Part shown: positions 15,853-55,573 of the stretch, in pieces | How positions within the stretch are numbered: position 1 is the stretch's first letter | How the letters are laid out: each line of letters begins with the position of its first letter | Assembly (NCBI GenBank): GCA_015501055.1 | Contig: JADNYV010000127.1 | Coordinates: 1-64,000, forward strand | Direction: 5' to 3' | Source of the DNA: Mucidula mucida | Taxonomy: Eukaryota > Basidiomycota > Agaricomycetes > Agaricales > Physalacriaceae | Length of the DNA stretch: 64,000 nucleotides | Notes under the pieces: generated by a model | Database searches by the model: none | Told to the model about the DNA's origin: nothing | Seen by the model: the letters and a program-made list of their open reading frames with translations, nothing else | Made by a program: the position numbers and the translations under genes

Positions 15853-15858
15853 GTCGAG

Positions 15859-16333: not shown

Positions 16334-16530
16334 ATGAATTTCGCCGCCGTCGTGATTCTCATCCTCAATGCTGACATTAGTGTCGGTGCCCGCTTATCCA
16401 TCTTTAGATCTCCCGTGGCAGAGCGTAAGTTTCTGAGTCCTATGGCGTCGAGTTATTGTACTTACATATCTCCAAAGAAGATATTGATATTCCCAGGAGG
16501 AACCCAAACGGGCAGCCCCAGGCTTTCTAA
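16334..16530 (+). CDS. Small secreted peptide precursor, ENID-P family member 1
   Basis: Two exons, 16334-16424 and 16478-16530, separated by a 53-base intron (GTAAGT...AAAG), give a 47-residue product. Residues 1-19 form a hydrophobic secretion signal (MNFAAVVILILNADISVGA). Exon 2 encodes the tail Q-D-I-D-I-P-R-R-N-P-N-G-Q-P-Q-A-F, which aligns position by position with the E-N-(I/L)-D-x-P-x-(R/K) start and the C-terminal Phe of five other genes between 40.8 and 49 kb. The Arg-Arg pair could be a Kex2-type processing site, leaving a nine-residue NPNGQPQAF. It sits between the Ngaro element and a convergent amino-acid permease. This is the most divergent member (Gln-Asp instead of Glu-Asn). 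Confidence 0.65.
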
Positions 16531-16703
16531 GAGCTACTAGAAGGATGTTGAGCCTCTTACTATGAGCGTCTGGAGAAGTCACAGCGGATAACATACACAA
16601 ATATGTGGCGTTGATAGGTGTGGCATGTATGAGCAGCTATATTATCGGACAATTATTTTGGCGAAAACATGCATAAACGTAGCAATATTCGGATTAGCAG
16701 GCC

Positions 16704-19062
16704 CTACCCAGACTTCGTCCCCGAATCACGTCCCAAACTCGCTTCACGATCGTGTTTAACATCAGCGAAGGTATCTTCGCTCACGTTTGCGACTGGTCCG
16801 TTAAACCAGTACACGCCCCCGTACTTGGGGAAGTAGAAGTAGATGACAGAAAGCAAAATCACGCCACCGATGACCACCACCGAGTAGTTCATGTTGGTGG
16901 CGGTAGGAGCGGGTTCCGTCGGAAAGAGTAAGGCAATCGTCATGAACCACATCCAGAGCACAGCAATACAACCAACTGGCTTACTCTATATCGTCGTTAG
17001 ATGCCGGCTGGACATGTAACACAGGTATGCTTGAACTCACGAATATGCCCAAGCTGAAGGGACCCGGTACGAACTTGTGAGGCCCCAAGAAACGAGCCGT
17101 TATGGGAATGGAGTTGACAACATATTGGCCAACGACGCCCATGGAAAAGATAGCGGTAGTTGCGGCAGAACCGGCGAAGGTTAACAACCCGAGTAGCCCC
17201 GCTATGGTAACCGCAAACCAGACACAGTTGACCGGGGTACCAGATCTGGAGTTGATTCTATACAGGTATGGCGAAAACGGAAGCGCGCCGTCTCGAGAGA
17301 ACCTATTCGCCACGTGTCAGCTCAAGAAAGTCGGAATAGGAAGCCGACTCAACGCGAATGCCTGTCGCGACGCAGACATCGTCATGCTTGAACCTGCCAT
17401 CCACCTGGACAATCATCGTAAGTTACGAAGATAGCCCTGTCCTGATCCAACTCACAGCGCGATGATGATGAGCGACCACACGGCGAGAGTCGTGTTTCTG
17501 TTAAAACTATTGTGAAGTATCTGTTGTGGGGGGTCGAGTCAAGGCCGTTGAGTTTTTGTAGATGCGTACGCACTGTAGCCAAAGGTTGCCCAATTGGATC
17601 CGACAAGATACTAATTGTGTCGGGACCCATGCTGAAAGCGACACAGATTTGTAGAGCAAATCCAAGCGTACACCCAATTGCTGTGACAGTGACGATGGCC
17701 CATGGTACGGCGACATTCGCGTTTACCGCCTCCTCACTGATGTGAACTCCGGCGTCGAAGCCACCTGACCAAGAGCGATTATTGCCACGCCACATTCCTG
17801 AAGCCGACTACATACCGACAGACCACTAGAAATCAGGAATGAGACTAAAGCTTTTAGGTACACAGTGATGAGCCACATACAAGCGGTGCTAGGAAGCTCA
17901 GTATAAAAGCATATCCACTTGGCCAGAGTGTGACTAGAAAGGACATGTGAGAATTTGAATGTGAAGCTGAAAACATCATACGATTGGTAAAATTCCCAAA
18001 AGTGTAACTCGCGGTATTCATACGTTCTGATGGTGTAGCGATCGGCAGGCCAATTAAAATAATGAGGACAAGGCTGAAGTCTCTCGGGTGACGCTGTCGT
18101 ACGACAGATATGACGAGAAAACTTACGTGATGTTCAGGACGATGAAGGACCATTGAAGCCTAGCAAGAACTCCAGTTGCAAGACTGGCAACGATCCCGTG
18201 CGATATCAGGACAGCGCAGAAGACACCACTGGTGAATGTGATCTAACATGTTCCTTGATTGTGATACGAAGACGAAGTATACTCACTATGTTTGATATAC
18301 TGTGGGTACAAACGTTCCCGTCCCAATGCTGGCCCCAGCCATTATTTGCAAGGCACATGAGTAATCGATGCCCAAAATTCCCTACAATTGATCAGTGTTC
18401 GTCGAACGTGTACGGTGGTGAGCTCACGGTGATGTAAGTTATCGTGTTCGTATACCCGACAATCCATGCCAGCAGATTACGATATTTCGGAGAAGAGAAT
18501 TTGTGTGTCCAGTAATAGAGGCCACCTAAGAAGAAACTAGAGTCAGCAGGAAGGGATCACTAGACGAGAGTGCCATGCCCTACCTGACGTAGGCGCTGAT
18601 GATCCAAGTTCTGGCGCCAGACACGGTGTTAGACGATGAAGACGCCTACGAGTATAGCACCCACCTGCAATAGCCAGAGCGATGCACATAAGGAAGACCG
18701 AGCAAGTTGCCCACTGACATATTACATGAGCACAACGAAAGCAGACCAAAGATAATACCATGTACCCCCCAAATCATAGCCGACGAGCCTCCATTGGGTA
18801 AAGAGTAAAAGAGCACTGAACTAGAGCCGGGGGCGTCGAATAAGCGAGGTGTCATGAAGAGACGAGACTTACGCCACGGAAGGCACAATAGCTGAAATAG
18901 AGAACCAAATCCAAAGAGCTCCACGACCGTGAACTTCCTCTTCAGTTCTTGCTTGTAGCCCAAGGCGGCCAGCAGAGCCTTATCGTTAGTCGTCGTTTCG
19001 TTGCCATTGATACTCGTGTCATGGGTAACATACTGTGCACCGTCCTCGGAGGAGTGCGACAT
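16704..19062 (-). CDS. Amino-acid permease (APC superfamily, GABA/choline-permease-like)
   Basis: A multi-exon gene starting MSHSSEDGAQYV at 19062 and ending after GRDSGTKSG at 16704. Recognisable pieces in order are the cytoplasmic N-terminus, SVLFYSLPNGGSSAMIWG in TM1/TM2, AELGSSAPTSGGLYYW, AGVHISEEAVNANVAVPWAI (the conserved HxSEE region), SMTMSASRQAFAFSRDGALP, TPVNCVWF and the last TM pair before KYGGVYWFNGP. These are hallmarks of fungal amino-acid/GABA permeases of the plasma membrane. Introns are about 45-60 bases. In the second exon one T seems missing near 18905: the frame must slip to read GFG then FSISAIVPSVA. That is either a lesion or an assembly indel. The gene diverges from the UstYa-like gene at 19428 over a 365-base shared upstream region, so the two could be co-regulated. 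The substrate cannot be told from sequence. Confidence 0.85.
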
Positions 19063-19427
19063 GACAGAATGAGGTGACAGTACGGCGTGAGACGTTGATG
19101 CATCTCAATTTAGCTTCCTGGATTTCAATAGAGATTCGATGATATCGTTCGTGATGGTCAACTCGTGGGAACTTTTTTGACGGACACCTGGAGTGTGCCG
19201 ATCGAAGTGCCGAGGCCCTTGACTGAGTTCGCACTTGAATTGCCTAGCACCAAAGGAGATAGAAAGGTACTGAGAATAGGAACTGCCATCATGCTGCGAA
19301 GAAGAAGTAGGCACATCTTCCCAGACCAGCTGTCGTAATCCCGTCTCTCCCGCTATCGCCGCGCCAGTGACAGTGGCGAAGTATCAGTCTTATCGCTCAC
19401 CGACAAGTTCGAACTTTACACTCTGGC

Positions 19428-20136
19428 ATGACCAAGTCTCAGCTGCGCCTTTCATGGGCCATTGCATGCGCCCTAGTCTTTCTGGCCTTCATGAATGCGG
19501 GGATGTTCATGAATGTCCGCCACGATCAAGCCCCCACCGACACGTCAAAGGAATACAGTGAGTTGAATGTATTCATGAAACACATAGTCGAGTGACATTC
19601 AAATCTGTAGCCTACATCGGCAACGACTACCCTGAATACTATATTCCTACTCGTGAAATCCCTGATGTCGTCGTGCGGATGGAAGAGGCTCGAGCGTACC
19701 CGATATACGGGGATGAGGCGCTCGAGAGATGGGCCTCGAGCGCAGCGACGGGCTACGGTTACGTGCGACTGGGTCCTGAGAAACGCGCCTACGCAATCTC
19801 GATGTTTCATCAGCTTCACTGTCTGCGCCTGATGCGTTCTGCATTGGCAGGACGCTACGACGACTACACGCGTGGCCATACTCAGCATTGTCTCAGCTAC
19901 TTGCGCGTGGGTTTTGAGGTTCTCGTGTTGTTGTTGTTCTTTACTGAGCTTGCACCTAGCAAATGATACTCTGTTCGCCTGACCTAACGCTCGAACCATC
20001 TGACGTTCTGGATCGCGACTTTGAGGTCGACAGGCAAGGGGCTACCCACGTATGCCCTGACTGGGGAGTCATGTACGAGGAGTTGGAAGACAATTGGAAT
20101 AGTTGGGTGGCAGTAAGGAACGAAACGTTTGCATAA
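19428..20136 (+). CDS. UstYa-like (DUF3328) oxidase, 200 aa
   Basis: Three exons (19428-19557, 19611-19906, 19960-20136) give a 200-residue frame with no lesion. Residues about 9-28 form a single membrane anchor (AIACALVFLAFMNAGMFM). Both diagnostic H-x-x-H-C motifs are present: HQLHC in SMFHQLHCLRLMR and HTQHC in HTQHCLSYLRQMILC. The C-terminal THVCPDWGVMYEELEDNW matches the usual Cys-x-Asp-Trp ending of the family. In ascomycetes UstYa/UstYb catalyse oxidative cyclisation of ribosomal peptides (ustiloxin-type) and related proteins chlorinate or oxidise other scaffolds. The basidiomycete role is unknown. It is divergent from the permease and convergent (71 bases apart) with the next gene. 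Confidence 0.9.
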
Positions 20137-20207
20137 CACGTATAACACGCGCATATGTACCGAAAACCATAAATTGCATGCTGTATTCAACATTGAGCCG
20201 TCTTGTC

Positions 20208-21303
20208 TCACAGTATACTATCTTCGCGGAAGATGCTTTGGTGCTGAAGAATATACATGGCTAATAAACGTGTGATCAGTCTCAAGCTAGACTCGTATAC
20301 ACGGGAAATCTCACCCATTTTCGGTGACTTGACGTCCTGCTCAAACGCCAGGTGGCATAAGGGCGACGTGCAAGTGACCTCAAACGTTACTAAGGAGCCA
20401 GCGGCGCAGTGGAATTCGGGCGATTCAAGTTCGATTCGCTTCCCGGGTTTGACATGCGACTGAGCGAGCGACGTGAGTCTCCTCGGCTTCGTCGACCAAG
20501 AAAGCGTGCGAGGATCAATGTTATCAAATGCTTCAAGCCGCCAGATATCGAGCGTAAACGGGTCTTTGCTCAGAGCTACCTCTTTCGTACTGCGCCGCTC
20601 ATGATGGTGATGATGTCCCTCTGAGTCCGCGAGCAGCTCCGCAGATGTTGGAACGACAAGCATCAGGTTGCAGCGTTCCATTCCAAAGTCCAAAGTTCGA
20701 AACTGGATCACAGTCGAAACCTGACGAGCGAATTATGAGCGATTACTGCTCAGCAATAGCCACAGTTAGTTACTCGCCTCACTCGAAACGAGAAACGTTC
20801 TATCCTCTTGGTAGACCATACCAAAATTGGACGCCCAATGGCGAACGTCAAGGTATACTTTGGAAGGATCAGAGGCATTGGCTTGACCGATGTAAAGAGG
20901 GTAGTTGGTTATGGGAGGGATTGGCGTGGGATCTTGGAGAACGGCGGTGTCCAGACCAATGTATGCATTGGCATATCGGAGGGGCTTCAAAGAGAATACA
21001 ATCTCTTCATCTGAGCGCCGACGCGCCGCCTTCCATGCGCGAACAATACTGAAATTACCGACGGTAGATGCGGCGGAGACGATGCATGCGCATATAATGA
21101 CCCAAAACGCGATAGATCGATGCAACGTTCCTGGAAGACCAATTTCAGAGATAAGCACGTCGAGAACAAACGAGTATACCTTTTTCGAGTGTGGGTGCGA
21201 AACTGACTCTCCGAACCCGATCGTTGCTGGATTCTTCATCTTCAAGCAAAGGCGCAGACAGCCACTCTCTCGAGGACGACATCTCGTTCTTGGTGCTAGA
21301 CAT
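20208..21303 (-). CDS. Single-pass membrane protein, But2-C-terminal-like, often next to UstYa-type genes
   Basis: Start ATG 21303 (MSSTKNEMSSSREWLSAPLL). An acidic cytoplasmic N-terminus is followed, after an intron, by one TM segment (HRSIAFWVIICACIVSAAS). Then comes an extracellular domain with the conserved pieces LKPLRYANAYIGLD, VYQEDRTFLVSSE, TVIQFRTLDFGMERCNL and CAAGSLVTFEVTC...PLCHLAFEQD, ending KMAMYILQHQ. I assign it from memory to the group commonly labelled But2 C-terminal domain proteins in mushrooms, whose function is unknown. The intron at about 20760-20703 keeps the frame only with a GC-AG border (GAG/GCGAGT...CAG/GTTTCG). A poly-His stretch (HHHHH) lies in the domain. It is divergent from the GNAT gene. 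Confidence 0.75.
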
Positions 21304-21666
21304 GGCGGCGGTGAGTTCAAGAATCCAATGCCATCTGAACTCACATCCATCAGAAGGCCACTTCGCGGACTAGTGCGATGCCGACTCCTTTGAATGAGTC
21401 GGTTCGCACCGGTTTGATGTCACTCGTGGAAAGTATAGAGTAAAGATACGTTCCCGAAGGATCAATCTGTCAAAACTGGCATAACTTGAATCGTTTAAAT
21501 GGGCAGTTCTTCTTGGGCGCAAGAAGCACAGTAGTCACAGGTGACCTTCAGCATCCCATGATGCAGATGATGATCTTCCCGCGTTGTAAAAGTTCCATAC
21601 TGAACGAGTGTCAACTGTTGCCCAGTTATCAGTCATCAGCATTCGATTCCGCGCTCCAACCCAGAG

Positions 21667-22666
21667 ATGTCGAGTCCTGCCTTTACCGTTAGACAACTTG
21701 TAGCGACGGAAGGTGAAGTGTAAAGCCTTACTGTTGGACGGTAGAGCTTGACATTCAGCAGAGCAGAAAAAGTCTCGCAGCGCTTTAGAGAGTATTCCGG
21801 AGCTCAGAGCGACGGAGGATGCGCTTGCGAAAGCTTTCGCCAACGGTATGCAGAGACGCTGCCTCGTTTGCTACGCTGAAGATGGTGTCAGACCTTTTCA
21901 CGGCAACTGTCAACGGGAAAAAGGAAGTCGGAGGCGATACAACGTATGTTGGCCCTTTCTGGACGACAACAGTCCTTTGTGGCCTGCTTGGCGGTGAAGT
22001 CTATGTCGCCGAAACAGCGGACGATGAGAAGAAGATCATTGGTTGCGCTGTATGGTTCCCGCCAAACCATTCCATGTACGACTCGTAAGTCATATCATCT
22101 TCATGATAGCAGAAAATTAAACCGATTTGTGTAGAGAGGATCAACAAGAATTCGTTCTTGGACCTCTCATGGGCTCGTTCTCTGAGGAGCTTGGGGAGTG
22201 GTGGGAAAAAAAGGTTTGGTCACTATGCCGATACAAACATCGTGCTTATATGTGGCGCCAGTTTCTCCCTCAATATGATGCCTTCAACGACGCGACGTTA
22301 GGTCCCGGCGTGAAACATGAATCATGGCACTTACAAACTCTCGGTGTGGACCCTGCGTATCAACGGAAAGGAGCAGCAACGCAACTTATTGAGGTTGTTC
22401 ATCGAAAGGCCGCAGCCCAAGGTCAAGCGCTTGTCCTCGAATGCGAGGAGGAATTTAACGTAAGTGGTATTCTTGAAGCAACGAAGTTCAATGTGGTCTA
22501 ATGGTGCCAGATTGATGTTTACACCGCCCTGAAGTTCAACCTCGTCTTGCCCAAGGCGAAGGAGGGCGTCGTCGAAAACCCGACGAGACGCGACTATCAA
22601 GACCACTTCGTCGGCGTCAACGGTTATCTTGAATTTCCAATGTGGGTGATGCGTCGTGATCCGTAG
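21667..22666 (+). CDS. GNAT-family N-acetyltransferase
   Basis: The ATG at 21667 opens MSSPAFTVRQLVATE. Five further exons join with GT-AG introns and keep one frame to TAG 22664-22666, roughly 230 residues. The acetyl-CoA-binding motif A is LGVDPAYQRKGAATQLIE (Q/R-x-x-G-x-A pattern), preceded by SWHLQTLGV (strand beta4) and followed by ALVLECEEEFN and IDVYTALKFNLV, the usual GNAT C-terminal strands. The N-terminal part has GCAVWFPPN, the loop found in fungal GNATs of this type. It transfers an acetyl group from acetyl-CoA to an amine; the substrate is unknown. It sits between two UstYa-like genes, so it may act on the same product or provide self-protection. No lesion seen. Confidence 0.9.
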
Positions 22667-23862
22667 AAGTTGGCTTCTAGCTCCCAGAAGAGTTAAAAAT
22701 GTACAAAATAATGCAGACTCACAAAATGATGCGATGAACTTGATACTTTTTCGACACCTGTAAAAGGTCGTGCTACGCTTTAACGCCATCAATTGGATGA
22801 TACAGGTAAGTACCGGTGTCGACTGGTGTCGAAACCAGGATTCAAATTTCTTCTCGGAATAATTATAGGGCGGCTATTGCTGTCTTCCGGGCATCGATAT
22901 AGCACAGCATTTGGAGGCCGCAGCTCCTCCCTTCCCGAGTCGCCGTTCCTGTATAGTACGAGGAGCAGGAGGCAAGCTCGGAGTTGCCTGATTGAGAGAC
23001 GGCTTCCGGCTTGGCGCTTGTGATTGTGACCACGCTTTGTCAGCATTTCCCTTTTTTCGTCCTGCCTCTTCCTGACGCGACGCGTCTCTATCGCCAGTCT
23101 TTCCAACCTCGCGGACCGTTGAATAATATAGGGCCGCTGCTCAACCCGGTATTTTCTCTTTTGTTACTAGTGCTACTTGCCGCCGTTTTGTATCGTACTG
23201 ACAAGCTGGAAATCGTGTGATGTCCCCCAGTTCTTTCTTGTCTGACTTGGGGGCTCACTTGTTTTCCCTCTCGAAAAGATACATTTGTCGAGTCCGTGTG
23301 GTAGGAGCACGTCGACGTGACGTGCATTCCCCCACAGCGCTCTTCGTCTCTTTTAGTTCGAATCCTTATCACAAGTCCAATTTGTTGAGCTGTCTCTTCC
23401 TTCAGCAAACACGTATTAGGCGCCTCTGCATCGTAAGCACTTGTTGGCAAATGTATGTTCCTAGAAGTTGAAGTCCCATGTCGCCGTCAGACCTCAGACA
23501 AGCTCCGCGGCGCACCGCTTAATAATGCGCGGTGTCCTTACCTTACGTCAATCCCCCTAAGAAGATTGACTGATCGTTCCCAGCAAAGAGTCAGAGCAGC
23601 GCTCCAAGATGATGCGATCAAGGCGTAGACGCTCGCACTAGATTGCTTGGGCGGTTCTCATCTACATTGCGTGCCGAATTCAATTCCTCATCTGTCTCGA
23701 CGCTCTGATGGAGGACTGCTGACCCAAAGCTTCCGAAGGCGTGGACGTACAATTGATATCCATGGTATTTGCTCATTCGTGGTGGTGGAACAATCTGTCT
23801 GGCCTGTGCTCCATACGGTATCGAGATCTTAACCATTACGATTCACGTCCGTACAGCAACAA
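22667..23862. other. Intergenic, no supported gene
   Basis: About 1.2 kb with pyrimidine-rich stretches (23160-23250, 23330-23410) but no coding region with a domain. The last part is the promoter of the UstYa-like gene at 23863. Confidence 0.4.
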
Positions 23863-24518
23863 ATGTTTTCCTTCCGCCCTAAAGCTTTTCTCGGGCTCGC
23901 AGCTTTCGCACTGGGAGCATGGTTTGTCCTCAAGTCGTTGGCAGCAAATAAAGACGTTGTTGAAACCGGTAAAGTCCTTTCCTTCTTATTTCCGGTTTTA
24001 TTACTGAACGTTACCAGGCGTCTTCAACGGCGCATCTCCCAAGTGGAACATTGGCCATCTAGATACAGTCCGGATGCACGTTCAGAATACCGTTCATTAC
24101 CAATTGAACGGTTCCTTGGCGGAGGCACAATGGTCGTCGTTGATACCCGAAGGTGGCGGCATCGTTCGACTTGGCCCAAACCGAGAGCCTTTCATGCTCT
24201 CGATGTATCACCAACTGAGATGCCTCGATTTGATTCGGAAGGCGTATATTCACGGCGCAAATGGCGACCGTTCGTTCGACGCCGCTGCAGGGCATTGTTT
24301 AAACTACATTCGTACGCCTCCGTCCTCACCTGACCGTACGGGGGAACTAACTGGGAGTTAAAGGCCAGATGGTGTTTTGTCGCGGCGACCTCCGACTGGA
24401 GAGAGTAGTTGATCCGAATGGCCCACATGCTGTCCAGGTGCGGGAAACAACGACGTGCCAAGATTGGACCGCCGTATATAATAAAGTTCACGAAGTGCAT
24501 GGACGGGATGTCGTATAA
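23863..24518 (+). CDS. UstYa-like (DUF3328) protein with altered metal motifs, 184 aa
   Basis: Three exons (23863-23968, 24018-24311, 24364-24518) give an uninterrupted 184-residue frame. Residues 7-22 (AFLGLAAFALGAWFVL) form the N-terminal anchor. The body follows the family pattern: SMYHQLRCLDLIRKAY, then AGHCLNYIRQMVFCRG, LERVVDPNGPHAV and TTTCQDWTAVY. The two H-x-x-H-C motifs are both changed, to H-Q-L-R-C and A-A-G-H-C, so one His of each is missing while both Cys are kept. It may be a partner or regulatory subunit of the intact copy at 19428, or have a different chemistry. The frame and introns are clean, so it looks like an expressed gene rather than a relic. Confidence 0.85.
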
Positions 24519-24858
24519 GTATCGAATGGACTTGACTTGGTCCGCCGACGATCATCAATTTGACACCGAGCTCTCCTAGAAATGCCCACTGAGCCAGTGA
24601 AAGAATTTCATCGAGATCTATTTTTGAGGTGAGAACAACTTTGTTGCTCAGCTTAACAGCGTGTGTAAATCTCAACGGCATTTTTAGACCAGAGACAGCT
24701 GAGTTCAGGCCCCAGACTCCTTCCCATTCGTCTTCACGCCCAGCAAAATAATCTCAAATCCTTGTGCGAATAGATAGTTGAATACAAGTTGAATAAATAT
24801 ATTACCTCGATCACGATTCGAACCCTCCTCCAATCAATTGATGGTATTATGTAACTCC

Positions 24859-25352
24859 AAACCTTATTATTTTGCTAAGGCGTAAAGACGACTGGCATAA
24901 CTTGCAGGTAGTTGTTTGTTTGGCTACAGCCTCTACCGTGGCTCGGTCCAGAATTCGAGCGATCAGAAGAGCTCACAGCCACAGGATCCTCCATCAGAGC
25001 TCTTCTGGGAGCGAGGTTGAGCTTCCGGAAGGACTATCGGGAGGCACCAGATCTGGGATCTCGTCTTCGCCTGGGTTATCTGCTACTTGCGCGCCGATGA
25101 TTTTGTATTGCGCCACAAATCGCAGTGCAAGCAAGAAGAATCCGGTGCAAATTATAGCACTCGACATGGTGTCAGAATAACAAGAAATATATTTCATTTT
25201 CTGTCCTTCATCCCTCGCACACGAGGCAACTTCATCGATAGCGCGAACATGAGGTGCGACGAGGCGGTGAGGCTGTGCCAGGCCGTAGCCAAACAAACAA
25301 GTTTGGCAAGTTATGCCAGTCGTCTTTATGCCTTAGCAGAATAATAAGGTTT
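24859..25352. mobile_element. Inverted-repeat (foldback/MITE-like) element, about 494 bases
   Basis: The left arm begins AAACCTTATTATTTTGCTAA and continues through GGCGTAAAGACGACTGGCAT to a TTTGTTTGGCTAC block. The right arm is its reverse complement, ending ...GCAGAATAATAAGGTTT. The arms are about 65 bases long and nearly perfect. The interior has a 100-codon open frame on the minus strand (25296-24994) with one hydrophobic segment (AIICTGFFLLALRFV) that I do not recognise. Confidence 0.75.
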
Positions 25353-25450
25353 GATGGGAGTACAAAGATAAGGAGATAAGATTAAAAATTACAAAACATG
25401 ATTACGATTACTGGTATCATCTCATCAAATCATCTGTTCTCGGATTTGGG

Positions 25451-38370: not shown

Positions 38371-40564
38371 ATGATGAATTACGCTTATTCGTTGGTGGTA
38401 GGAATTGCTTTTGCTATCGTAGTTTGGTGTATTTCACGGTATGACCGCCGTATGCCCCACCCGCCGGGGCCTAAGCCGAGCTTCCTCGTCGGCAATCTTG
38501 CGGATATGCCGACGGAAAGCCAGTGGCTGGCCGTCCACGAATGGTTCCAGAAATATGTAAGTAAAATCGGTTTTCTTGTATGTATTGTCTTGATAAATTC
38601 GCGTACAGGGTCTGTTACGCGCGTTGGATGTGCTGACTGTCGACCTGAGACTCTGTTAGGTGACTTGGTCTACATTTCCGTCTTGGGGCAACCAATGGTC
38701 TTTGTGGGTTCGGCCAAACGAGCAGCAGAAATGTTTGATAAACGATCTGCCATCTACTCCTCGCGACCCAGGTGGCCCATGGTTGTCGAACTGTACGTCA
38801 TTCTACATCGTTCCTTCAGGCTTTGGGAGGCATTGACGCGTATCTCAAGGATAGGTTTGAGTTACAGTATCACGAGCATGCCCTACGGTACGCGGTTTCG
38901 GGTTCTGCGTTGGCGACTGCACGAACCTTATTCTTTGTGATTAGGCCAGAAATGGAGGGCGCACCGAAAGTTGCTGCACGACTACTTCAGCGCCGGGAGA
39001 ATCCATCAGTATCACGCCGTGCAGCTAAACGAAACACATAATTTCTTGAGGAGGTTGTTAGAAACTCCCGAGCAGTTCATGGATCACATTCGTCTCCTTT
39101 TCGCCGCGATAATCATGGATGTGACGTATGGCATCAAGGTCAACAGTATCGACGACCAGTTCATTCTCGCAGCGCAATCATTGTTTGACGCAATTGCCAC
39201 TGCGGGCACTCCAGGTTCGTAGCATCTTCCTGTCGTCGTCGTCATTCTCAAAGACTTTCAGGTGCTTTCTGGGTCGACGCCATTCCGGCTCTCAAATTTG
39301 TTCCCAGCTGGTTTCCAGGTGCCGGCTTTCAAAAAAAGGCGGCGGTATGGCGAGCAACTTCTGATACATTCGCGCAACGACCTTTTGATGCCCTGAAAGC
39401 CGCTATGGCGAGTAGCCTTATCAGTCGTTCAAGATCTTAACTAACGACGTATTGTCTTCGTTAGGATCAAGGAACTGCCGCGCCATCGGTGGCACGAAGT
39501 ATGCTGGAAGACATTTCACCAAGCGAAACATCGTCGAGAGCTGAATTCGAGTACCGAGCTCAAAGCGTCGCTGCATCAATGTATGCGGGTGGGTCTGACA
39601 CGACGATGGCCACAATTCAGTTCTTCTTCCTTGCGATGACATGTTACCCTGAGGTTCAGAAGAAGGCACAGGTACAGTTTATCCTTTATCCTCCACAAAA
39701 CGTCTTCATTCTCAATTCATTCAGCTTGAACTGGATCAGATTCTAGGAGGAGAAAGACTACCTCTCTTTTCTGATCGTGCGTCTCTGCCTTACATCAACG
39801 CCGTTGTGAAGTACGCGATTTCATACATACGGATGTCTCCGCTCTCATCAATTACCACAGGGAGACCTTGAGGTGGCTCAATGTATCGCCTTTAGGTGAG
39901 TCTACTTCCCACACCGATAGCATTTCTTTGAACTTCTCGCAGGCGTACCCCACTACACTACTGCCGATGATGTGATTGACGGAATGTTGATACCGAAAGT
40001 GAAGCCATATTCACCTGCGAATTACTCTTCCCGCCAACTTATCTTTTGTCTATGTAGGGTTCCTTCGTGATGGGATCTATATGGTTCGTATTTCCAAGGG
40101 ATAGCTTGCATTTCTCCGCTGACGCGTCTCATACATCAGGACCATTCTCCACGATCCAAATGTCTTCCCAGAACCAATGGAATTCCGCCCAGAAAGATTT
40201 TCGGAGGAAGGTGTGGATCCTAGCCTTGTGGACACGGCCTTCGGGTTCGGAAGACGGTAAGCGTAGACCCGTAAGCAATCGCGTGAGTTTAAGCAGCCTT
40301 CGCCATAGTCAATGCCCTGGGAAATACTTCAGTGACTCCGCTCTATTCATTGTCATCGCCTCAGTCTTAACGGCATTTGATATCCGAGCGACGGGTGACG
40401 AAAAACCACAACCAGGCATGACTTCCGCTGCCGAATCGTGAGTGATTTAGTTCATGATTGTCACCGAGGCTGAGCAGAGTAGATACCCTCTTCCGTTCTC
40501 GTGCACGATCAAACCGCGTTCGAAAGTATTGGAAGACCTTGTACGTGACGCGGAAGCTGTCTAA
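38371..40564 (+). CDS. Cytochrome P450, microsomal
   Basis: ATG 38371 (MMNYAYSLVVGIAFAIVVWC, membrane anchor) is followed by MPHPPGPKPSFLVGNL. Spliced exons give SITSMPYGTRFRKWRAHRKL, the FPSWFPGAGF-type segment as FVPSWFPGAGFQ, the I-helix YAGGSDTTMA, the K-helix ETLR, the PERF motif FRPERF and the heme loop FGFGRRQCPGKY with Cys codon 40313-40315. All diagnostic residues are present and about a dozen introns are usable. The end is TAA 40562-40564. One weak point is the first donor near 38558: AAATATGTAAGT gives the right phase to GDLVYISVLG only if one G is restored or a one-base exon is used. It is the intact paralogue of 5042-7077. Probable role is hydroxylation of a secondary metabolite. 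Confidence 0.85.
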
Positions 40565-40799
40565 CGAGAGTGTACACCTAAGTCGTTTGAATTATATTGG
40601 CTTCGCCCGCTGTTCATCAGTCAGATATCACTGAGCTGGGAAACGCTCATCGCTCTTTGTAATTACTCAGTCGGTTCATTATCCGCGGTCAAACTGAAGT
40701 GGCCTACGACTAAGAATGGCAAGGATGAACTGATCGTCTACGCATGGTGATCGTCGTCGACCTAGCAGCTGACGATTCTGTGGAGGAGTTGTGTTTGCC
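40565..40799. other. Spacer before peptide gene 2
   Basis: P450 3' region and upstream region of the peptide gene; no other gene. Confidence 0.3.
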
Positions 40800-40806
40800 T
40801 ATATAA
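40800..40806 (+). promoter_or_regulatory. TATA box of small peptide gene 2
   Basis: TATATAA, 75 bases upstream of ATG 40875. Confidence 0.65.
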
Positions 40807-40874
40807 GACTTGCCATTATAGTCGAGTCTCTATCTACCAGAAAGGCAGACCCACACCAGAAATCTTTTGTTACC

Positions 40875-41058
40875 ATGAAATTCGCCGTCGTCATTGCTCT
40901 GTGCTTCGCCGCCCTCGTGCAGGCTAGCCCTGTCGCGGAGCCCGTCGCTGGTAGGTGCAATAGACTTGACTTGATTCGAATATTGAAGTCCTATTGCAGA
41001 GAACCTCGACCTCCCTCTTAGGGATGTCGATAGCCGCGAGCCCGCTGTCGGTTTCTGA
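40875..41058 (+). CDS. Small secreted peptide precursor, ENID-P family member 2
   Basis: Exons 40875-40950 and 41000-41058 with a 49-base intron (GTAGGT...GCAG), 44 residues. The signal peptide is MKFAVVIALCFAALVQA with a likely cleavage after Ala-x-Ala. A short SPVAEPVA linker precedes the splice, and exon 2 gives E-N-L-D-L-P-L-R followed by DVDSREPAVGF and a stop. The linker SPVAEPVA resembles IPVANPVA in member 3. The intron is in phase 1 (G/AG), exactly as in the other members. No paired Cys. Function unknown; the shape is that of a secreted mini-peptide or of a ribosomal-peptide precursor. Confidence 0.75.
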
Positions 41059-41601
41059 AGGACTCATTGTCTGTAAGTAATACTTTTGTTAGACGTTTGA
41101 GCGGGTTTGAACACTATCTCGTAGATGAACCGAAATCTCGGATGCGTTCAAACAAGGGGTTGAAGGTTCAACGAGTCTAAATAGTTTTTTGTTGTTCAGA
41201 GAATGAAACATGTGTTGTTGAAATTATGCCTTCTGCTGGCCTGTCTCCAGTGTCCAGCCGCCTGTCTTCTAAAAAGTTGAGATGGTGACAGGATGTGTGT
41301 GACGACAAGTACTCAACCAGCGACCGGCGACACCACGAATTCCAGAAGCTCAACGATTAGGACTGAACCGGGCCTGCAAGCTCTGTTTTTGACGCTCCTT
41401 TCAGCTGCCGCGCTTGACTCTCACGTTGACGGCGATAGACACTCGCGAAGTTAATTCTCTAGAACACCAGGGCTTCTAGGCGTCTATATCCTGCGAACTT
41501 TAGTAAGTACGTTCTGTTGAGACATCCTGGAAGCAAGACCGACTCCTGGGCCGCATTTCTCGTCGCCGCCATATCAGCATCACTACTTCCTCTGAACTAC
41601 T
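41059..41601. other. Intergenic, no supported gene
   Basis: No coding region with splice sites or domain. Confidence 0.3.
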
Positions 41602-41763
41602 ATTACCAAGGCTCTTATCGCTTTCGCTCTGTTTTTCACCGCCTCTGTCTATACTTCTTCAGCTCCCGCTGAAGGCGGCGCGTTCCCCTTCGACGATGAA
41701 GGCCTAAAGTCTTCACACTTTCCGTTGCCCGTGGCGGCTACAATTGTAGCGGTTTGGTGCTGA
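41602..41763 (+). pseudogene. Possible start-less small secreted peptide gene
   Basis: An open frame of 53 codons reads I-T-K-A-L-I-A-F-A-L-F-F-T-A-S-V-Y-T, a good signal-peptide core, then SSAPAEGGAFPFDDEGLKSS, ending at TGA 41761-41763. The expected ATG position holds ATT and no ATG lies upstream in frame. It lacks the ENID-P tail. It may be a decayed neighbour of the peptide family or chance. Confidence 0.25.
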
Positions 41764-42576
41764 CGATCTTCCACGTACTCTCACGTTATCCTCGGACACC
41801 ATCGTTTTCGACTCTGAGAGCAAGATTGCTATCTCTGAGTCTGAAAGAAATCTGTAGCGACTCAATTGTGACTCATGACTGAGGAACAGTCTGTGGAAGG
41901 CGCATGGTGGGTGCTCAGTACATACGAAGCTCTCGTTCAATGTCTGTTCTGTTGCGATCACCTCACCTCACCGCGGCGCCACGTTTTATCCGACTTCATT
42001 GAACAGTATACACGGGCTGGTATCTCCCATCATTGGGGCCAGAATCATCATGCATCTGTTGACAGCAATCGGAGCACGGCAACTGTCTGTTGATGGCAAA
42101 GTGAGTAGCGGTTATCTTTGCAGAGTACGTGCTGTACCTATCTTGATTGATGGAGTCTGTCAGTACATTTTCCTTTCAGAAACATTCTGATGGTACGCGA
42201 AGAAGAGGAGTATAGGGAGGTCACTTGCGCATACTACAAGCAGAACCAGCCGGTGTCAACTGAGCCGAAAAGTGAGTCAAGAGAGTATTCGTCAGACGCC
42301 GAGGGAATGTCGGTATTGCTCGACGTAGCAAAAATATTACTGCGGAGGCGTCTGACCATGTACAATTGAGACCGTAGGAAAACAAACGACGAGTCCCCGA
42401 CCGCAGAGTCGGATATCATACCACCCGAAATGAAAACTCCCAGAATAGAGGAACAATCCCATCTTCAGGTGACCGCGGAATCGATAGCTTCTTGCTAGAG
42501 AGGTATTTTCGGCTGATATTTGTGCAGGCGCGAAAAACGCGAACGAAGGAGGTAACATATCTGATGGGAACTCACA

Positions 42577-42582
42577 TATAAA
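42577..42582 (+). promoter_or_regulatory. TATA box of small peptide gene 3
   Basis: TATAAA, 77 bases upstream of ATG 42654. Confidence 0.65.
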
Positions 42583-42653
42583 CGAGTGCCCAGGTGTCTG
42601 TTACTTTTCATCGCCCACCTACACAAAGCGAAGAATCATCAGTCACTTTCACC

Positions 42654-42837
42654 ATGAGTTTCGCAGTTGTCTTCGCCTTCTTCCTCGCTGCCGTCGTGCA
42701 TGCCATACCCGTCGCGAACCCTGTCGCTGGTAAGGATCTGATATTTCATCATGACCATCCTCCTCAATCAGCGATACTTAGAGAACATCGACGTACCTCT
42801 CAAGGCAGACGCACTTGAGCCAGCCGTCGCGTTCTAA
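42654..42837 (+). CDS. Small secreted peptide precursor, ENID-P family member 3
   Basis: Exons 42654-42729 and 42782-42837 with a 52-base intron (GTAAGG...TTAG), 43 residues. The signal peptide is MSFAVVFAFFLAAVVHA and the linker IPVANPVA. The tail is E-N-I-D-V-P-L-K followed by ADALEPAVAF and a stop. It is the closest relative of member 2 (same exon-1 length of 76 bases, same PVA repeat, EPAV(G/A)F end), which points to a recent duplication of the pair. Lys takes the place of Arg at the eighth tail position. Confidence 0.75.
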
Positions 42838-43687
42838 ATGATAATTGCTCGTAAGTCATTCGAGTTCGAGTCGAGCGCCACCTCATCCTGACATCCTGCT
42901 AGTGTGCATATCTTGTTGATTAAATCCGTGTATACCCGCTACAATTGAGCGATTTTTTCACCTGTACAACTAAATTGAATGTTAAACAAATATTGCCAAT
43001 AAACGCAGTTGTAAGTAGAGCGGTCTTTAACGGACCAGAGGGCGTTGAGAAAGAACGTAGCAAAGTGTTAAGTGATATTTCACGACTTCAAGTCATGTTA
43101 TTAGATTATTTCGAGTGAACAGAGTGATAGTAAGTACCCACTGCGCTTTGCCACGAATACATGCCTTAGGAATATGCCAAGAAGGCAGCCGTCGCGACAG
43201 ACGAGCCAGCTGTAGTTCAAGAAGTTCCTCAAAGCCTGAGGAGTAAAGGGAAGTCCTAAAGTATGAGCCGTCGGTCCAATTTTCGGAGCGTCGTGGGTTT
43301 ATCGTGAACTCAAAACAGCTCAGAAACTGGTTGTAGGCAAGAAGAGTGATCGTCATGACCTGGTCGTGACAGGTGTAAGCGTTACATGACAGGGCCACGT
43401 GCTCGTCACTTGCTCTCATTGATCTTGCCTTGATCTCTTCGCTTTGTTCAATGTCTGGATGCCGACCAAGTCACCACTTTCGCGAGGGAAAGCGTAATCC
43501 ACATTGAACTGACTTCGACACCGCCCGATATGCACGGGGATACCATACTCACTAGAGCATACTTTACCATTGTCCAGGCTTCCTGAAAGGCGCTCTAGTC
43601 GACACCCTTGCTTCATCACGGAAAACGTTCCCTGCAGTGCGGTCACTGTAGTAAATGACGGTAAGACATTTACACTACGTTATGTGG
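42838..43687. other. Intergenic, no supported gene
   Basis: Two open minus-strand stretches (43419-43093 and 43646-43416) have no domain and no splice logic that I can support. Confidence 0.35.
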
Positions 43688-44747
43688 TTAATCATCCTGG
43701 AAAATAGGAGACGCAGCTAGAGCTGCAGCATAAGCCTCGCCGTCCATGTCTTCTTTATCCGTAGAACGAGCTACATGCGCCCACTTCTCTGCTTGCGCAA
43801 TCGTCTGCTGAGCTTGTCGCTTAATCAACCAGAGGGTGTCAGATCCAAACTGGATCCGCAAGGGGAGCTTGGGCTCGCTGGCAAGTTTGAAGAGGGCCTT
43901 CAAATCGTCAGCTATCCATCGTCCAAGATATGCCCGGGGACCTACCTCTGCCATACGATTCGGACTGCCCAGATGTGCGAAGTCTGCTTTCCCGAGTTCA
44001 CGAAACATAGCGGCCGGGTTGGTGGGATAATCGTAAGCAGGATGGACGACGGGGAGGATGTTTGCAGAGTTACCGCGCCATTCGCTGTCAAACCCTCCAG
44101 GCTGTATGATGGCGCCTTTAATATTCCACGCCGGATCCATCTCCTTGAGGAACGACTGGGTAAACCCTTCCAATGCTATCACCAACAATCGTTCGGTGCT
44201 GATCTTCGACTCACAGACAGACATTTCAGCGACTTACCGAATTTACTGGAGTTGTAGTACGATATGAGAGGGTTGGCAGTGTATCCCCCTGCTGTACTAA
44301 TGTTAAAGAGATATCCCCCTGTCTTTTGCTCGCGGAAAATCCTTGCGATCTGAGGAATCCAGTCAGCCTGTGCCAGGACAAGTCATCGCGCTCATACCTC
44401 CTTCATAATATAAACCGGACCCCAGAATTTCACCTCGAATAGCTGGCGCGCATCCGAGAGGGCAGTGCCTTCGACTTCGCCGAATATGGCATAACCTGCG
44501 TTGTTGACGACGACATCCATTCGGCCGAAATGCTTTACGACACGATTCAGCGTTTCTACCACCTCTTTTGATTGGTGAGGTCCAATGTAAGTGGGAGGAG
44601 CTGATCTGGATAACGCTCTTGGAGAGACGCCAGGCCTGCAGCGTTGCGCGATGTGGCAGCAACGCGTTCCCCGGCTGCGAGGACTCTTTCGAGGATGGCT
44701 TTACCGAGCCCGGTGGAAGTTCCAGTAACGAACCAGACCCGAGACAT
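43688..44747 (-). CDS. Short-chain dehydrogenase/reductase (possible frameshift)
   Basis: ATG 44747 (MSRVWFVTGTSTGLGKAI) carries the NAD(P)-binding T-G-x-x-x-G-x-G. Next come DVVVNNAGYAIFGEVEGT (NNAG motif), GGYLFNISTAGGYTANP (catalytic Ser strand) and YYNSSKFALEGF with the catalytic Tyr-x-x-x-Lys. The C-terminal part with IQPGGFDSEWRG extends to SPIFQDD, stop at 43688. Length is about 310 residues, normal for the atypical SDR group of fungi. The frame slips by one base at about 44577, in DLTNQK/EVVETLNR, next to a short A-run, either a lesion or an assembly indel. It would oxidise or reduce an alcohol/carbonyl using NAD(P); the substrate is unknown. Confidence 0.8.
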
Positions 44748-45843
44748 TGTTTGAATGTCGAGTATATCTTCCTGGGCCCTTTATAGCTGTCTGTTTCTTA
44801 ATATCGCAACCGTCAGCATCTATCACGACACATACGTCTCGCGCCGGGCAGCCACGTCCTCAATTGCCTTCGAGCATACACCGCGGCCGTTGGGAATGCA
44901 ATCACTTAGCAGTTGCCATTGATTCACGTTATGAGCGCGCAACTATTCCCCGGCCAAAGAGGGTTTCAGCACTGACTTTGGGCGCTGGGGCATTTGGCAT
45001 CCTAAAGTAGGTCAAGCTTCTTCTCAGTCCTCGATGACTTTACGAGATACTCAGATCGTTCAGGACCAATCCTTATGACTCTGGAAACACGCGTTCGCAA
45101 TAACGGCGGTGGGATACCTCGATCTTGTGGATAGATGTGGCGTCCATTCGATGTCGGCTCACACAGAATCAGTCGCCGCAAGAGCGGGGCGATATTATTA
45201 CATCACAATGCGACGAGAAGGCCGGTTCTTGAAATTTCCCGGTCTGTATGCAACAGTTATTCGACTTACAGGCGGAGGTAGAACATCCATCTACTGGTGA
45301 AAGTCTTGCTGGGAAATAGCAGGCTGCCGAGCTTCCGGACCCGGTCGGATGTAGCATGGATTACAGACTTGTTTCCTCCACTTTTTCTACTCGAGTCTAT
45401 GTACCCGCCCTTCTAGAGAACAGCTATGAGGTATTTTCTCATCGTGCGTGGTCGGAAACTGAATTTCGGTTTTGAAGTTTAGGAGTGACTCTAGCTAGCT
45501 TATTATTAGCGCAAGGCGCTGCTGCTACCTCGAACGCCTCTGCGGATCTTCGCTATGATCAGCGCTACAGGACCATTCGGAATGGCATTCGGAGCCTCGG
45601 ACTTTGGATGAAAGTGACTGATCAACGTCTTGTCGCTGATCGGAGGGACGCGATCCTCACGAGCTCGTGTACACCAAATCTATATCTCCCAAACGAAGCA
45701 TACTACTAAGTCGGGACGCGGACACTTTCGTTGGCCGACAACACGAACAGATTGCTGCCTGAGTCTACCGTGGAATTATAACGGCGGGGTCGTCATACTT
45801 CTCGAGTCGATTCGTATTCCTAATATGAAGCCAGGACCAAGAG
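44748..45843. other. Intergenic with possible gene debris
   Basis: At 45390-45475 a plus-strand stretch reads YVPALLENSYEVFSHRAWSE, which looks protein-like but is isolated. An open stretch at 45485-45709 has no domain. No gene can be assembled. Confidence 0.3.
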
Positions 45844-45849
45844 TATAAG
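45844..45849 (+). promoter_or_regulatory. TATA box of small peptide gene 4
   Basis: TATAAG, 81 bases upstream of ATG 45925. Confidence 0.55.
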
Positions 45850-45924
45850 TACATTGGCCGCGAGCACTCAGGACACCGACACCCAGTATCCTGCCTCGCC
45901 ACTGCGACTCTTAATACACTCACC

Positions 45925-46129
45925 ATGAAGTTCATCATTATGTACACTCTGATGTTGGCTACATTTGTGTACGCTCGTCCCGGGTGTAGGCGTGATAGAG
46001 ACCTTGGTCAGTCAATCCTTACGAGGACTCAAAGGTCAAATGTATCTAGACTAACGACGCACAGAAAACCTGGATCAACCTGCCCGTGCCAAGGTTGACG
46101 ATGCTGACGGTGGCCCATTGTGTTTCTGA
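45925..46129 (+). CDS. Small secreted peptide precursor, ENID-P family member 4 (Cys-containing)
   Basis: Exons 45925-46006 and 46065-46129 with a 58-base intron (GTCAGT...ACAG), 48 residues. The signal peptide is MKFIIMYTLMLATFVYA. The linker RPGCRRDRDL contains a Cys and a dibasic Arg-Arg. The tail is E-N-L-D-Q-P-A-R followed by AKVDDADGGPLCF and a stop. The second Cys lies next to the C-terminal Phe, so the secreted form could close a single disulfide. With member 5 it forms a subgroup (GTCAGT donor, YA signal end, Q-P-A-R, C-terminal Cys). Confidence 0.75.
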
Positions 46130-46972
46130 AATATGTTATGTCCTCGCTCTTCTGTTGTTTCCCTTTCCCTTTGATTAACGACTACGGTCGCAGGCAATGT
46201 AGCCACATTTCCGCACTTTATTGATCACACTTATATCGGCTCGGCTGAAGTGTCTACATGTTGAAAGCTCCTGTAGATTCTCACGCAATGCATGCTGCTG
46301 TCCTCGTGCGTTACTCAGGCGATCTTGATTCTTTCCTCTAGCATCTGGAAGTATTCTTGGTTGGCGATCGAGATAAGTTGGGCTTATAGTCTACTATTAC
46401 CACGATCTTTAATTGAAGTTTATCGGTGAGCTACAAAGCAATCCCATATGCGAGAATGTGATCTTGGTAGAACTGACGCGAACGGTTATTGGCTCCATAC
46501 TCAAGGCGCGATAGTATATCCTCCGGCGCTCCGCGGTGCCATGGATGACCTGCGCGAAGTACTATGACAGCTTATCGCATGTATGGTCTTCTTCGACGAA
46601 GCTTTTCCCTGGGGGGACGCATAAATTGGCCACGTAGTCGACATGCTTGCGTCCTGACCTGATAGGTTAAGTACATGACTGGTGGGGCTACATTTTGCCT
46701 CATAAGTTTGCTGTGCACCCGAACACTTGCGAGCCGTTGAGAAGACAAAAAGGGGTAACGACGGACAGGTGCATGAGCGTAGATATTTAGTTATCTATAC
46801 GACTGCCATCCAGGAACAGTAATGTCTATCGAACTGAATTCCCTAGGCACTAGGGACCGCCGACGGTGGTAGTGTCAGGCTTCGGTTTGCATGGTGCGAA
46901 AGGCTTTGAAATAGCGTTAGCGGGCTGTCACTAACGGACAGCAGAGGAAGATAACATGGTACATACTGGATT
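46130..46972. other. Intergenic, no supported gene
   Basis: No domain, signal peptide or family tail found on either strand. Confidence 0.35.
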
Positions 46973-47151
46973 TCAGAACCCACATGCCGGGGCAAGGCCA
47001 GCATCACGCGCAGGCTGATCGATATTTTCTAGGCGCCCTTCGAGTTAGCATGTTGTAGCAAACACTTTCTGAAATGAGACTGACCAGGATCTCTACGCTG
47101 ATTTTCACCGCAGTCTTGGGCGTACACCAGCGCAGCGAGAAGGAGAGTCAT
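46973..47151 (-). CDS. Small secreted peptide precursor, ENID-P family member 5 (Cys-containing)
   Basis: Exons 47151-47085 and 47028-46973 with a 56-base intron (GTCAGT...CTAG). From ATG 47151 the product is 40 residues: MTLLLAALVYA, a linker QDCGENQRRDP, then E-N-I-D-Q-P-A-R followed by DAGLAPACGF and a stop. An ATG at 47167 (ATGAAGTTTACTGCT), in the position expected from the TATA box and matching the MKF start of the other members, is out of frame by one base. So either the signal peptide is shortened or one base is wrong in the assembly. Two Cys, one before and one after the splice site, match member 4. Arg-Arg in the linker is a possible Kex2-type site. Confidence 0.7.
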
Positions 47152-47241
47152 AAGCAGTAAACTTCATGGTAGGCTATTGGGATCGGTGGCGCGAGCACTT
47201 TTGTTCTTGGTGCGATGCGAGTCTTCGAGCTCAAGACTGCA

Positions 47242-47249
47242 TTTATATA
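47242..47249 (-). promoter_or_regulatory. TATA box of small peptide gene 5
   Basis: TATATAAA on the minus strand, 75-82 bases before the out-of-frame ATG 47167 and about 90-98 before ATG 47151. Confidence 0.6.
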
Positions 47250-47666
47250 CTGGAGATACGTGTTGTTCGGATCTTGAATATAACGACAATTCAATCGATC
47301 CGAGGCTCGCCACGGGGATGATAGTGGCCTCCATGTAGTCCGGCGACGAAGACGCAAATGTCAAGCCAGAGAAGCTGCCTAGACCAACCTAAGACACTGC
47401 TCACTTTTTATTTGTTCCTATCATTTAGAAGGCGCCTTCATTTCGAGAGACAGACGAAATGTTTGCTTCGTCGCGCATAGTAGATATGTCGTGCGTGTAG
47501 AATGACGAGACTGATAGGGAACCCTCAAGTCAAACATGCCGATACCGAATCAGTCCAGTCAGAGTCCAGTTTACGAGGTAGAACAGTCCTTCGATTGAGC
47601 TCGCCATATGGTCAAGGATAAAGGTGGTCAGGGCCTGTGCCAAGTTACTTTTTGACAATGACCATC

Positions 47667-48027
47667 ACTTAGTAGCCAAGTTCAAAGCTGGCGTAGCTGG
47701 CCGTAGCTGGGCCGTAGAAATAGTTCGTAGCTAGTTTCGTAGCCAGCCACCTCAGTCACTCCGAGGCAAAGTCCGCAAATTGCCGCGGTATCACGCTCTT
47801 GTCACCGCTTACTGATGGTACGACATTTCGTTGAAGATCCTGTTCCGGAAGGTAGTAGAATTCGGATGGGATGCTATATATATGCAATTATCTCCTTAGA
47901 ATGTTACTTCTGTATATATAATTGTTACAGCCAGCGGAAGGCGTCACATAAGTTATAGAAACCACAATTTAGTCACATTGAGTCCAGCTACGAAACTAGC
48001 TACGCCAGCTGAACTTGGCTACTAAGT
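47667..48027. mobile_element. Foldback/MITE-like element, about 361 bases
   Basis: The left end ACTTAGTAGCCAAGTTC, with following GCTGGCGTAGCT and GTAGCTAGTTTCGTAGC blocks, is mirrored by the right end GCTACGAAACTAGCTACGCC ... GAACTTGGCTACTAAGT. The arms are 50-90 bases with an internal loop containing CTATATATATGC. It has no coding capacity. It lies inside the peptide cluster, between members 5 and 6. Confidence 0.7.
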
Positions 48028-48743
48028 AACTGATAACTCGGCCGCCGGCTCAAGGTCTCTCTCCTCAGACCCCATGGACCATCGTCGCCGCCGCTCTAAG
48101 CTACGCGACGTTGTCGCTGAACGGCTGAACCCGGTACCCGCCCCATGTACTGTCCTATTGCATTCCCAGAGTTACGAAGTCCCCTTAACGCGTTTCATCG
48201 GACGAACAATACCGCGACATTCTTGTAGACAATATGCGCGCTGCATACAAGGACGTGGCCATTACCTGCTCAGGACCCGCTGAATTGCCCTACGGTTCTC
48301 TTTCCAGATTCTCTTAAGGCTCTTTTGTCACCATGTCCAGCTTTCTGGATAACATTTGAATCGATCGTACGCTGAATACAATGCATAAGAATCAAGGAGG
48401 CACCATGCGGACAGATCGTGGCGCGCGAACATAAAGGACATGTATTTATGGTACATTCTCATCGTTGCCTGTACTTATTTTCGCGCTTGCTGATTATAGC
48501 GTAGAATCAGGCCCTGCAACAATGTCAGACATCTGGTTAAACACCCTTCAAAGCGCAGATGTTCAGATTCTCAAGAACATTTTTATCTTCTTCTCGCGGC
48601 ATCGGTTGGTAAATGCCCCCTCCCTGACCTATGAATACTCAGGTACACACAGAATGAATAGGATTGACGTGTATATTTATCTGGGTGCCGCTGGTTACTA
48701 ACATACAGCCAATAACTTCGCGCTACTTACTAACAATGACTCT
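48028..48743. other. Intergenic, no supported gene
   Basis: Only short open frames without domains (for example 48074-48283). Confidence 0.35.
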
Positions 48744-48930
48744 TCAGAACGCGGCGAAGGGTTCCTTGTTGTCGTCTCTGCGGGGACGATCGATGTTTTC
48801 TGCACAAAAGAACATCAGTAACGACGTGTCCGATATTATCAGACTTACCAGTAGGAAGAGGCATCACTGCAACGGGAATAGTGCCCGCTACAGCGGTCAG
48901 AAGGAGAGCGATTGCAATCGTGAACTTCAT
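48744..48930 (-). CDS. Small secreted peptide precursor, ENID-P family member 6
   Basis: Exons 48930-48849 and 48799-48744 with a 49-base intron (GTAAGT...GCAG), 45 residues. The signal peptide is MKFTIAIALLLTAVAG, followed by the linker TIPVAVMPLPT. The tail is E-N-I-D-R-P-R-R followed by DDNKEPFAAF and a stop. Arg-Arg at tail positions 7-8 is a potential Kex2-type site that would release DDNKEPFAAF. The linker again contains I-P-V-A, as in member 3. Reading through the intron without splicing gives an unrelated 66-residue frame, so the splice-based model is supported by homology to the other five genes. Confidence 0.75.
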
Positions 48931-55572: not shown

Positions 55573-55573
55573 T

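Follow-up and report, generated by a model that had tools for sequence, protein, structure and literature searches.

What do six tiny split genes encode in the mushroom Mucidula mucida? They lie in the window analysed here, which is a 64-kb stretch of DNA (positions 1 to 64,000 of contig JADNYV010000127.1, assembly GCA_015501055.1; the contig is called C80 below). As read from the sequence, the six form one family and are located where an initial annotation, made from the letters and their open reading frames, had put them. A fairly probable answer is that these mini-genes are single-core, multi-gene precursors of a dikaritin-like ribosomally synthesised and post-translationally modified peptide (RiPP), modified by two neighbouring UstYa-type oxidases.

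Six mini-genes of one layout

The gene models are given in Table 1. When they were re-read, the places, the sizes of introns and second exons, and the intron phase claimed in the initial annotation were all borne out. Every intron runs from GT to AG, is 49 to 58 bases in length and is in phase 1, and in all six members it stands at the border before the E or Q that opens a conserved block. The second exons of members 1 to 6 encode 17, 19, 18, 21, 18, and 18 residues of the form [E/Q]-[N/D]-[I/L]-D-x-P-x-[R/K]...P...F. The E-N-(I/L)-D-x-P signature that had been proposed holds for members 2 to 6, whereas member 1 has Q-D-I-D-I-P, as the annotation itself pointed out. Five positions never vary in the six-member alignment (M1, the block's D and P, a later P, and the final F), and the tails end in VGF, VAF, LCF, CGF, AAF, or QAF. 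A TATA box had been claimed upstream of each member; it was found for all six, starting 63 to 98 bases 5′ of the ATGs of the models. The acceptor of member 1 (AAAG) is the weakest of the six. The intron of this member is also the least compelled, because its reading frame is open without splicing (68 amino acids).

Table 1. Mini-genes, UstYa genes, and a But2-C-like gene in the window
Feature	Position	Strand	Exons	Intron (bases)	Product (amino acids)	TATA	Tail or other trait
Member 1	16334..16530	+	16334-16424, 16478-16530	53	47	-78	QDIDIPRR-NPNGQPQAF
Member 2	40875..41058	+	40875-40950, 41000-41058	49	44	-75	ENLDLPLR-DVDSREPAVGF
Member 3	42654..42837	+	42654-42729, 42782-42837	52	43	-77	ENIDVPLK-ADALEPAVAF
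Member 4	45925..46129	+	45925-46006, 46065-46129	58	48	-81	ENLDQPAR-AKVDDADGGPLCF
Member 5	46973..47167	-	47151-47085 (internal ATG), 47028-46973	56		-98	ENIDQPAR-DAGLAPACGF
Member 6	48744..48930	-	48930-48849, 48799-48744	49	45	-63	ENIDRPRR-DDNKEPFAAF
UstYa1	19428..20136	+	19428-19557, 19611-19906, 19960-20136		200		both HxxHC motifs; PF11807
UstYa2	23863..24518	+	23863-23968, 24018-24311, 24364-24518		184		HQLRC replaces HxxHC; PF11807
But2-C-like membrane protein	20208..21350	-	two-exon model				between UstYa genes; PF09792

All six products have a hydrophobic start in a Kyte-Doolittle window, which is a putative signal peptide. Their N-termini read MKF, MSF, MNF, or, in member 5 as modelled, MTL, and each is accompanied by a hydrophobic stretch. 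Right before the tail, members 1 and 6 have RR, and the other four have a single R or K. In members 4 and 5, an RR stands a short way upstream of the block (a few residues), and members 2 and 3 have no dibasic site anywhere. In members 2 and 3, the dipeptide runs SP-VA-EP-VA and IP-VA-NP-VA, respectively, abut the E of the block.

Is this layout more than chance? I scanned for a hydrophobic start, a phase-1 intron of 45 to 70 bases, a second exon of 10 to 30 codons, a TATA box, and a terminal Phe. In the window, the scan found the six members and nothing else, while 40 first-order Markov shuffles of the window gave a mean of 0.025 places and a maximum of 1. Elsewhere in this genome, loci totalling 176,829 bases gave none. 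The frequency of the motif was also checked against chance in this genome (59.9 Mb), as had been suggested with the initial annotation. The strict pattern HAGARAAYHTNGAYNNNCCNNNNMRN has eight matches, five on C80 and three on the allelic contig C475, against none for the reversed control; member 1, with Q-D instead of E-N, lies outside this pattern. A wider acceptor-plus-motif pattern has 39 matches against 9 for the reversed control; of the 39, six are the members, three are their alleles, and 30 lie elsewhere. In the 29 of these 30 places that were parsed (the remaining one is at a contig end), no tail of 10 to 30 residues ending in Phe was found. Among the places parsed, the wider pattern leads to a family-type tail only on C80 and C475. 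A profile search, which uses at most 100 five-residue words and is not exhaustive, found no annotated Mucidula protein of the family. The earlier claim that these are real genes too short for normal annotation is thus supported by the chance controls, by the genome-wide pattern, and by the selection estimate given below.

C475 is about 97% identical to C80 and offers a second haplotype of the locus. Member 4 is identical on both. Member 6 differs at 9 of 82 positions in exon 1, at none of 49 in the intron, and at none of 56 in exon 2. The start at position 47151 that had been assigned to member 5 is an ATG, though an internal one. On C475, member 5 is open from the upstream ATG, whereas in the window haplotype this ATG, at position 47167, is out of frame (window 47149-47167, minus strand). 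Between members 5 and 6, window 47600-48103 is mostly absent from C475 (409 of 505 alignment columns are gaps) and is perhaps a small insertion. Reading by eye also found, between members 2 and 3 at window 41600-41760, a frame (ALIAFALFFTASVYTSSAPAEGG...) that is hydrophobic, looks secretory, and shows no start codon.

The comparison of nonsynonymous (dN) and synonymous (dS) changes between members, which had been put forward as a check, was run for members 2 and 3. Eleven codons differ silently and 16 with an amino-acid change, giving a dN of 0.24, a dS of 1.05, and a ratio of about 0.23 for this one pair of short genes with one gap placed by hand. The ratio is only suggestive. The nucleotide identity between paralogues, taken by segment, is no better than that of shuffled sequence in most pairs; this comparison is uninformative, because gapped alignment of short diverged pieces has little power.

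UstYa genes and a repeat precursor of the same layout

The coordinates covered by the initial annotation also contain two UstYa genes (PF11807, DUF3328), both intact and above the cut-off, which were not mentioned in it. In the whole genome, there are 15 PF11807 exon matches. Both HxxHC motifs of UstYa1 are invariant among 28 aligned sequences. In the clade of UstYa2 (19 aligned sequences), the H, Q, L, and C of HQLRC are invariant and the R is nearly so. Since HQLRC is kept in its own group, UstYa2 is a separate UstYa type and not a product of decay. A deposited Mucidula mucida protein (CPB85DRAFT_1326159, P0122; a shorter model of 130 amino acids) is 100% identical to UstYa2 where the two overlap. 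Member 1 and UstYa1 are 2.9 kb apart. Both UstYa types recur as a pair: among the 120 and 40 matches listed for them, at least nine contigs are common to both lists, where equal listed size was taken to mean the same contig and where two short metagenome contigs, of 3,045 and 4,389 bases, are included. The pair recurs in Mycena, Crucibulum, and polypores.

Does this genome also have a precursor with repeated cores? It was found that C316:142801-143164 encodes an undoubted five-core Kex2-repeat precursor, with an allelic copy at C230:38278-38641. The precursor gene is 2.5 kb from a UstYa exon. It has a hydrophobic exon of 61 bases, a phase-1 intron of 49 bases, and TATA boxes at -80 and -61. 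After the intron comes PVDKR and then five cores of about 14 residues, of the form xGPExYEEPYSDLT-KR, four of which are followed by KR. The six mini-genes share the layout of this gene in intron phase, intron length, and TATA distance, with one tail each. A repeat precursor hidden in the window itself was considered and rejected, as the window has neither a Kex2-repeat frame nor tandem repeats.

In the stretches fetched around the other UstYa loci of the genome, no precursor was found except that of C316/C230, and no mini-gene of the present layout was found beside them (about 10 kb per locus, phase 1 only). A divergent UstYa gene pair is present at C1:20472-21703 and at C103:12221-13452, on two contigs that are about 95% identical; the 10 kb fetched around this pair has no precursor of either kind.

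A search with the family profile gave a sole match, P0001, which is a 67-residue protein of Hymenopellis radicata, a species of the sister genus, with a poor E-value of 3.9. The start of P0001 resembles that of member 6, after which the protein reads on into and past the intron. In the family frame, its codons beyond the acceptor are compatible with member 6 at 15 of 19 positions of the second exon, counting Phe and stop, while the best of 100,000 shuffles reaches 12 of 19. Hymenopellis radicata also has an orthologue of UstYa1, P0002, which is 93% identical to it. Both proteins are listed on a contig of 45,515 bases, where the equal size was taken to mean one contig, and the linkage of a member-6 relative with a UstYa1 orthologue seems to be kept in Hymenopellis. 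For comparison, the average nucleotide identity of Oudemansiella (Mucidula) mucida to its relatives is reported as about 85% (PMC9961838). The predicted structure of P0002 is of low confidence (mean predicted local distance difference test score 63.7) and has a long N-terminal helix at residues 6-32. A profile of the UstYa1 relatives gave no match among PDB sequences.

The PF09792 (But2-C) match between the UstYa genes is the only one in the genome, and the protein is membrane-anchored by sequence. A literature search gave no paper on DUF3328 together with But2. A P450 gene, an SDR gene, and an FMO-like gene are nearer to members 2 to 6 than the UstYa pair is. The open reading frames between 26.1 and 30.9 kb have no Pfam match. 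Window 10786-15957 (minus strand) resembles a retroelement and gave a weak match, which is under the cut-off, to a tyrosine recombinase (PF00589). Two similar alpha/beta-hydrolase-like frames, at window 55551-55928 and 63045-63443, have the stretch NYGVPLATMRRLVEYWRTGFDWR in common.

Precursors, mature peptides, or mere neighbours

The initial annotation had left two options, secreted signal peptides and precursors of ribosomal peptides. The second is now better supported, because there are two UstYa genes in the window, an apparent linkage in Hymenopellis, and a repeat precursor of like layout near another UstYa gene. If the mini-genes are such precursors, exon 1 would encode a signal peptide that is removed by signal peptidase, and the products would enter the secretory pathway. 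The E-N-[I/L]-D-x-P-x-[R/K] block may serve as a leader or a recognition element; it stands where the C316 precursor has its KR-ending leader. A Kex2-like protease may cut after the conserved R/K of the block. Cleavage at a single Arg was observed for a mushroom precursor expressed in yeast (PMC9769878). The tails freed in this way would be 9 to 13 residues long and variable in their interior, each with a Pro and with a small residue next to the terminal Phe. In the lumen of the endoplasmic reticulum or Golgi, the tails would then be oxidised by the UstYa pair, and the products would be secreted. The invariant C-terminal Phe is the best candidate for the modification site: in victorin, a UstYa RiPP, the ring is reportedly closed between the C-terminal Phe and an internal Leu (PMC9233826). 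Instead of many repeated cores in one gene, there would be several genes of one core, so that, as I propose, each core could vary on its own.

Several observations weigh against this proposal. The basic residue before the tail is part of a dibasic site in just two of the six members, there are no core repeats, and none of the six tails contains a Tyr, which is the usual target of UstYa enzymes. Members 2 to 6 are at 16 to 24 kb from UstYa2 with other genes in between, and, around the other UstYa loci, the stretches retrieved contain no mini-genes of this type. In one haplotype, member 5 has an upstream ATG that is out of frame. The alleles alone show no coding constraint on the tail, since the intron of member 6 is as unchanged as its second exon, and the dN/dS estimate comes from a single short pair with a gap placed by hand. 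Lastly, relative to member 6, P0001 seems to carry a one-base shift immediately ahead of the donor, and thus the corresponding splice would not lead into the family frame. The Hymenopellis copy may be decayed, carry a sequence error, or use another donor.

It might be supposed instead that the whole second exon, of 17 to 21 residues and starting with E/Q-N/D, is a mature linear peptide for signalling or defence, which would be secreted without UstYa modification once a Ste13-like dipeptidyl peptidase, or Kex2 acting upstream of the block, had trimmed the precursor. In all six members, the intron lies exactly where this peptide would begin. X-P/X-A dipeptides in members 2 and 3 extend as far as the first residue (E) of the block, and RR occurs a few residues before the block in members 4 and 5. 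In addition, both X-A/X-P (Ste13-like) trimming and linear, minimally modified peptides are known in Agaricomycete precursors (PMC9769878). However, the dipeptide pattern is broken in member 6 (V-M), and member 1 has only SP-VA. In the C316 precursor, the same intron precedes a short leader ending in KR and then the first core, and the two UstYa genes of the window would be left without a role. I therefore consider this explanation unlikely, though it deserves more weight than the others that follow. The distance from UstYa2 to members 2 to 6, with several genes between them (transposon-like stretches, P450, SDR), would suit a further explanation, namely that the mini-genes and the UstYa genes are unrelated neighbours; the mini-genes would then form a tandem family coding for small secreted peptides with some other role, and the UstYa substrate would be elsewhere. 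That no precursor was found in the stretches retrieved around other UstYa loci, except C316/C230, points in the same direction. This is improbable in view of the short distance between member 1 and UstYa1, the linkage that seems to be kept in Hymenopellis, and the window, in which no other precursor candidate was found.

Might the genes have no function at all? Chance open frames or decaying copies could account for the out-of-frame upstream ATG that member 5 has in one haplotype, for the apparent frameshift before the donor in the Hymenopellis copy, and for the variation in exon 1 of member 6 between haplotypes. In contrast, six places were found where 0.025 are expected, five positions are conserved across six strongly diverged copies, and the dN/dS ratio of members 2 and 3 is about 0.23; such an origin is very improbable. 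In an agaric, paralogous genes this short, with products of 40-48 residues, also call to mind the precursors of B mating-type pheromones. These CaaX pheromones are likewise missed by annotation and have no hydrophobic secretory start. The members have such a start, the defining CaaX end is missing in all six, and none of the 27 STE3 receptor matches is on C80 or C475. This identity was rejected and is the least credible of those considered.

Known peptide systems and the missing UstYa substrates

How does the proposed single-core RiPP system compare with known ones? The dikaritins (ustiloxins, phomopsins, asperipin-2a, and victorin) have a secretory-type precursor beside UstYa genes, with a leader and then a core, and the same organisation is predicted for the mini-genes. 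In victorin, the ring reportedly uses the C-terminal Phe (PMC9233826), and the tails of the mini-genes end in an invariant Phe. Unlike the repeated cores of dikaritins, the mini-genes have one core in each of six genes, a dibasic site before the tail in only two, and no Tyr, the residue of the cross-link in ustiloxin, phomopsin, and asperipin. One of the two window enzymes also differs by having HQLRC in place of the first HxxHC. The proposed route works like the dikaritin pathway; nevertheless, the mini-genes are not classed as dikaritins, because they lack repeats, Tyr in the tails, and, for the most part, dibasic sites.

The Kex2-processed repeat proteins (KEPs) of Agaricomycetes would share with the mini-genes a secretory start, a leader, and Golgi processing, all three being predicted for the latter. 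They differ by their internal repeats, a trait that the C316 gene has and the mini-genes lack. The MSDIN cycloamanide precursors of Amanita and Galerina are also short paralogous genes with one core each, a constant leader, and a variable core. They begin with MSDIN and have no secretory stretch. The mini-genes share the short one-core format with them; an MSDIN-type identity was rejected, since the members begin with MKF, MSF, MNF, or MTL and a hydrophobic stretch. No single-core precursor is known to have been described for a UstYa cluster, and none turned up in the literature searched. No description of this mini-gene family was found in the literature searched, which did not extend to subscription papers.

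The lichen UstYa clans R1 and R2 also have UstYa genes and no repeat precursor (PMC12048977). Those are Ascomycete clusters, and no precursor was identified for them. Among the causes that might explain why precursors are missing, the authors of that survey mention a single core peptide, and they call the missing precursor a mystery (PMC12048977). Surveys that seek repeats (PMC7329392, PMC9769878) would miss the mini-genes, because these have no internal repeats. In the first of these two, a DUF3328 gene is near repeat precursors in 6.1% of cases in basidiomycetes versus 30.1% in ascomycetes (PMC7329392).

What would the mini-genes mean for this family of enzymes and for mushrooms? It may be that they represent a new type of fungal RiPP with one core per family member. 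The block would be a recognition leader for a dedicated UstYa pair (HxxHC plus HxxRC), the Phe would be the cross-link point, and the same pair in Mycena, Crucibulum, and polypores would act on tiny, spliced, overlooked precursors. I put this wider idea forward tentatively, with doubts that outweigh my confidence in it. UstYa enzymes make cross-linked peptides, and surveys locate their substrates via repeated cores. If mushrooms use sets of one-core, intron-bearing mini-genes of 40-48 residues, a simple pattern would suffice to find the missing UstYa substrates, and a set of natural variants of the peptide, all carried by one leader, would become testable.

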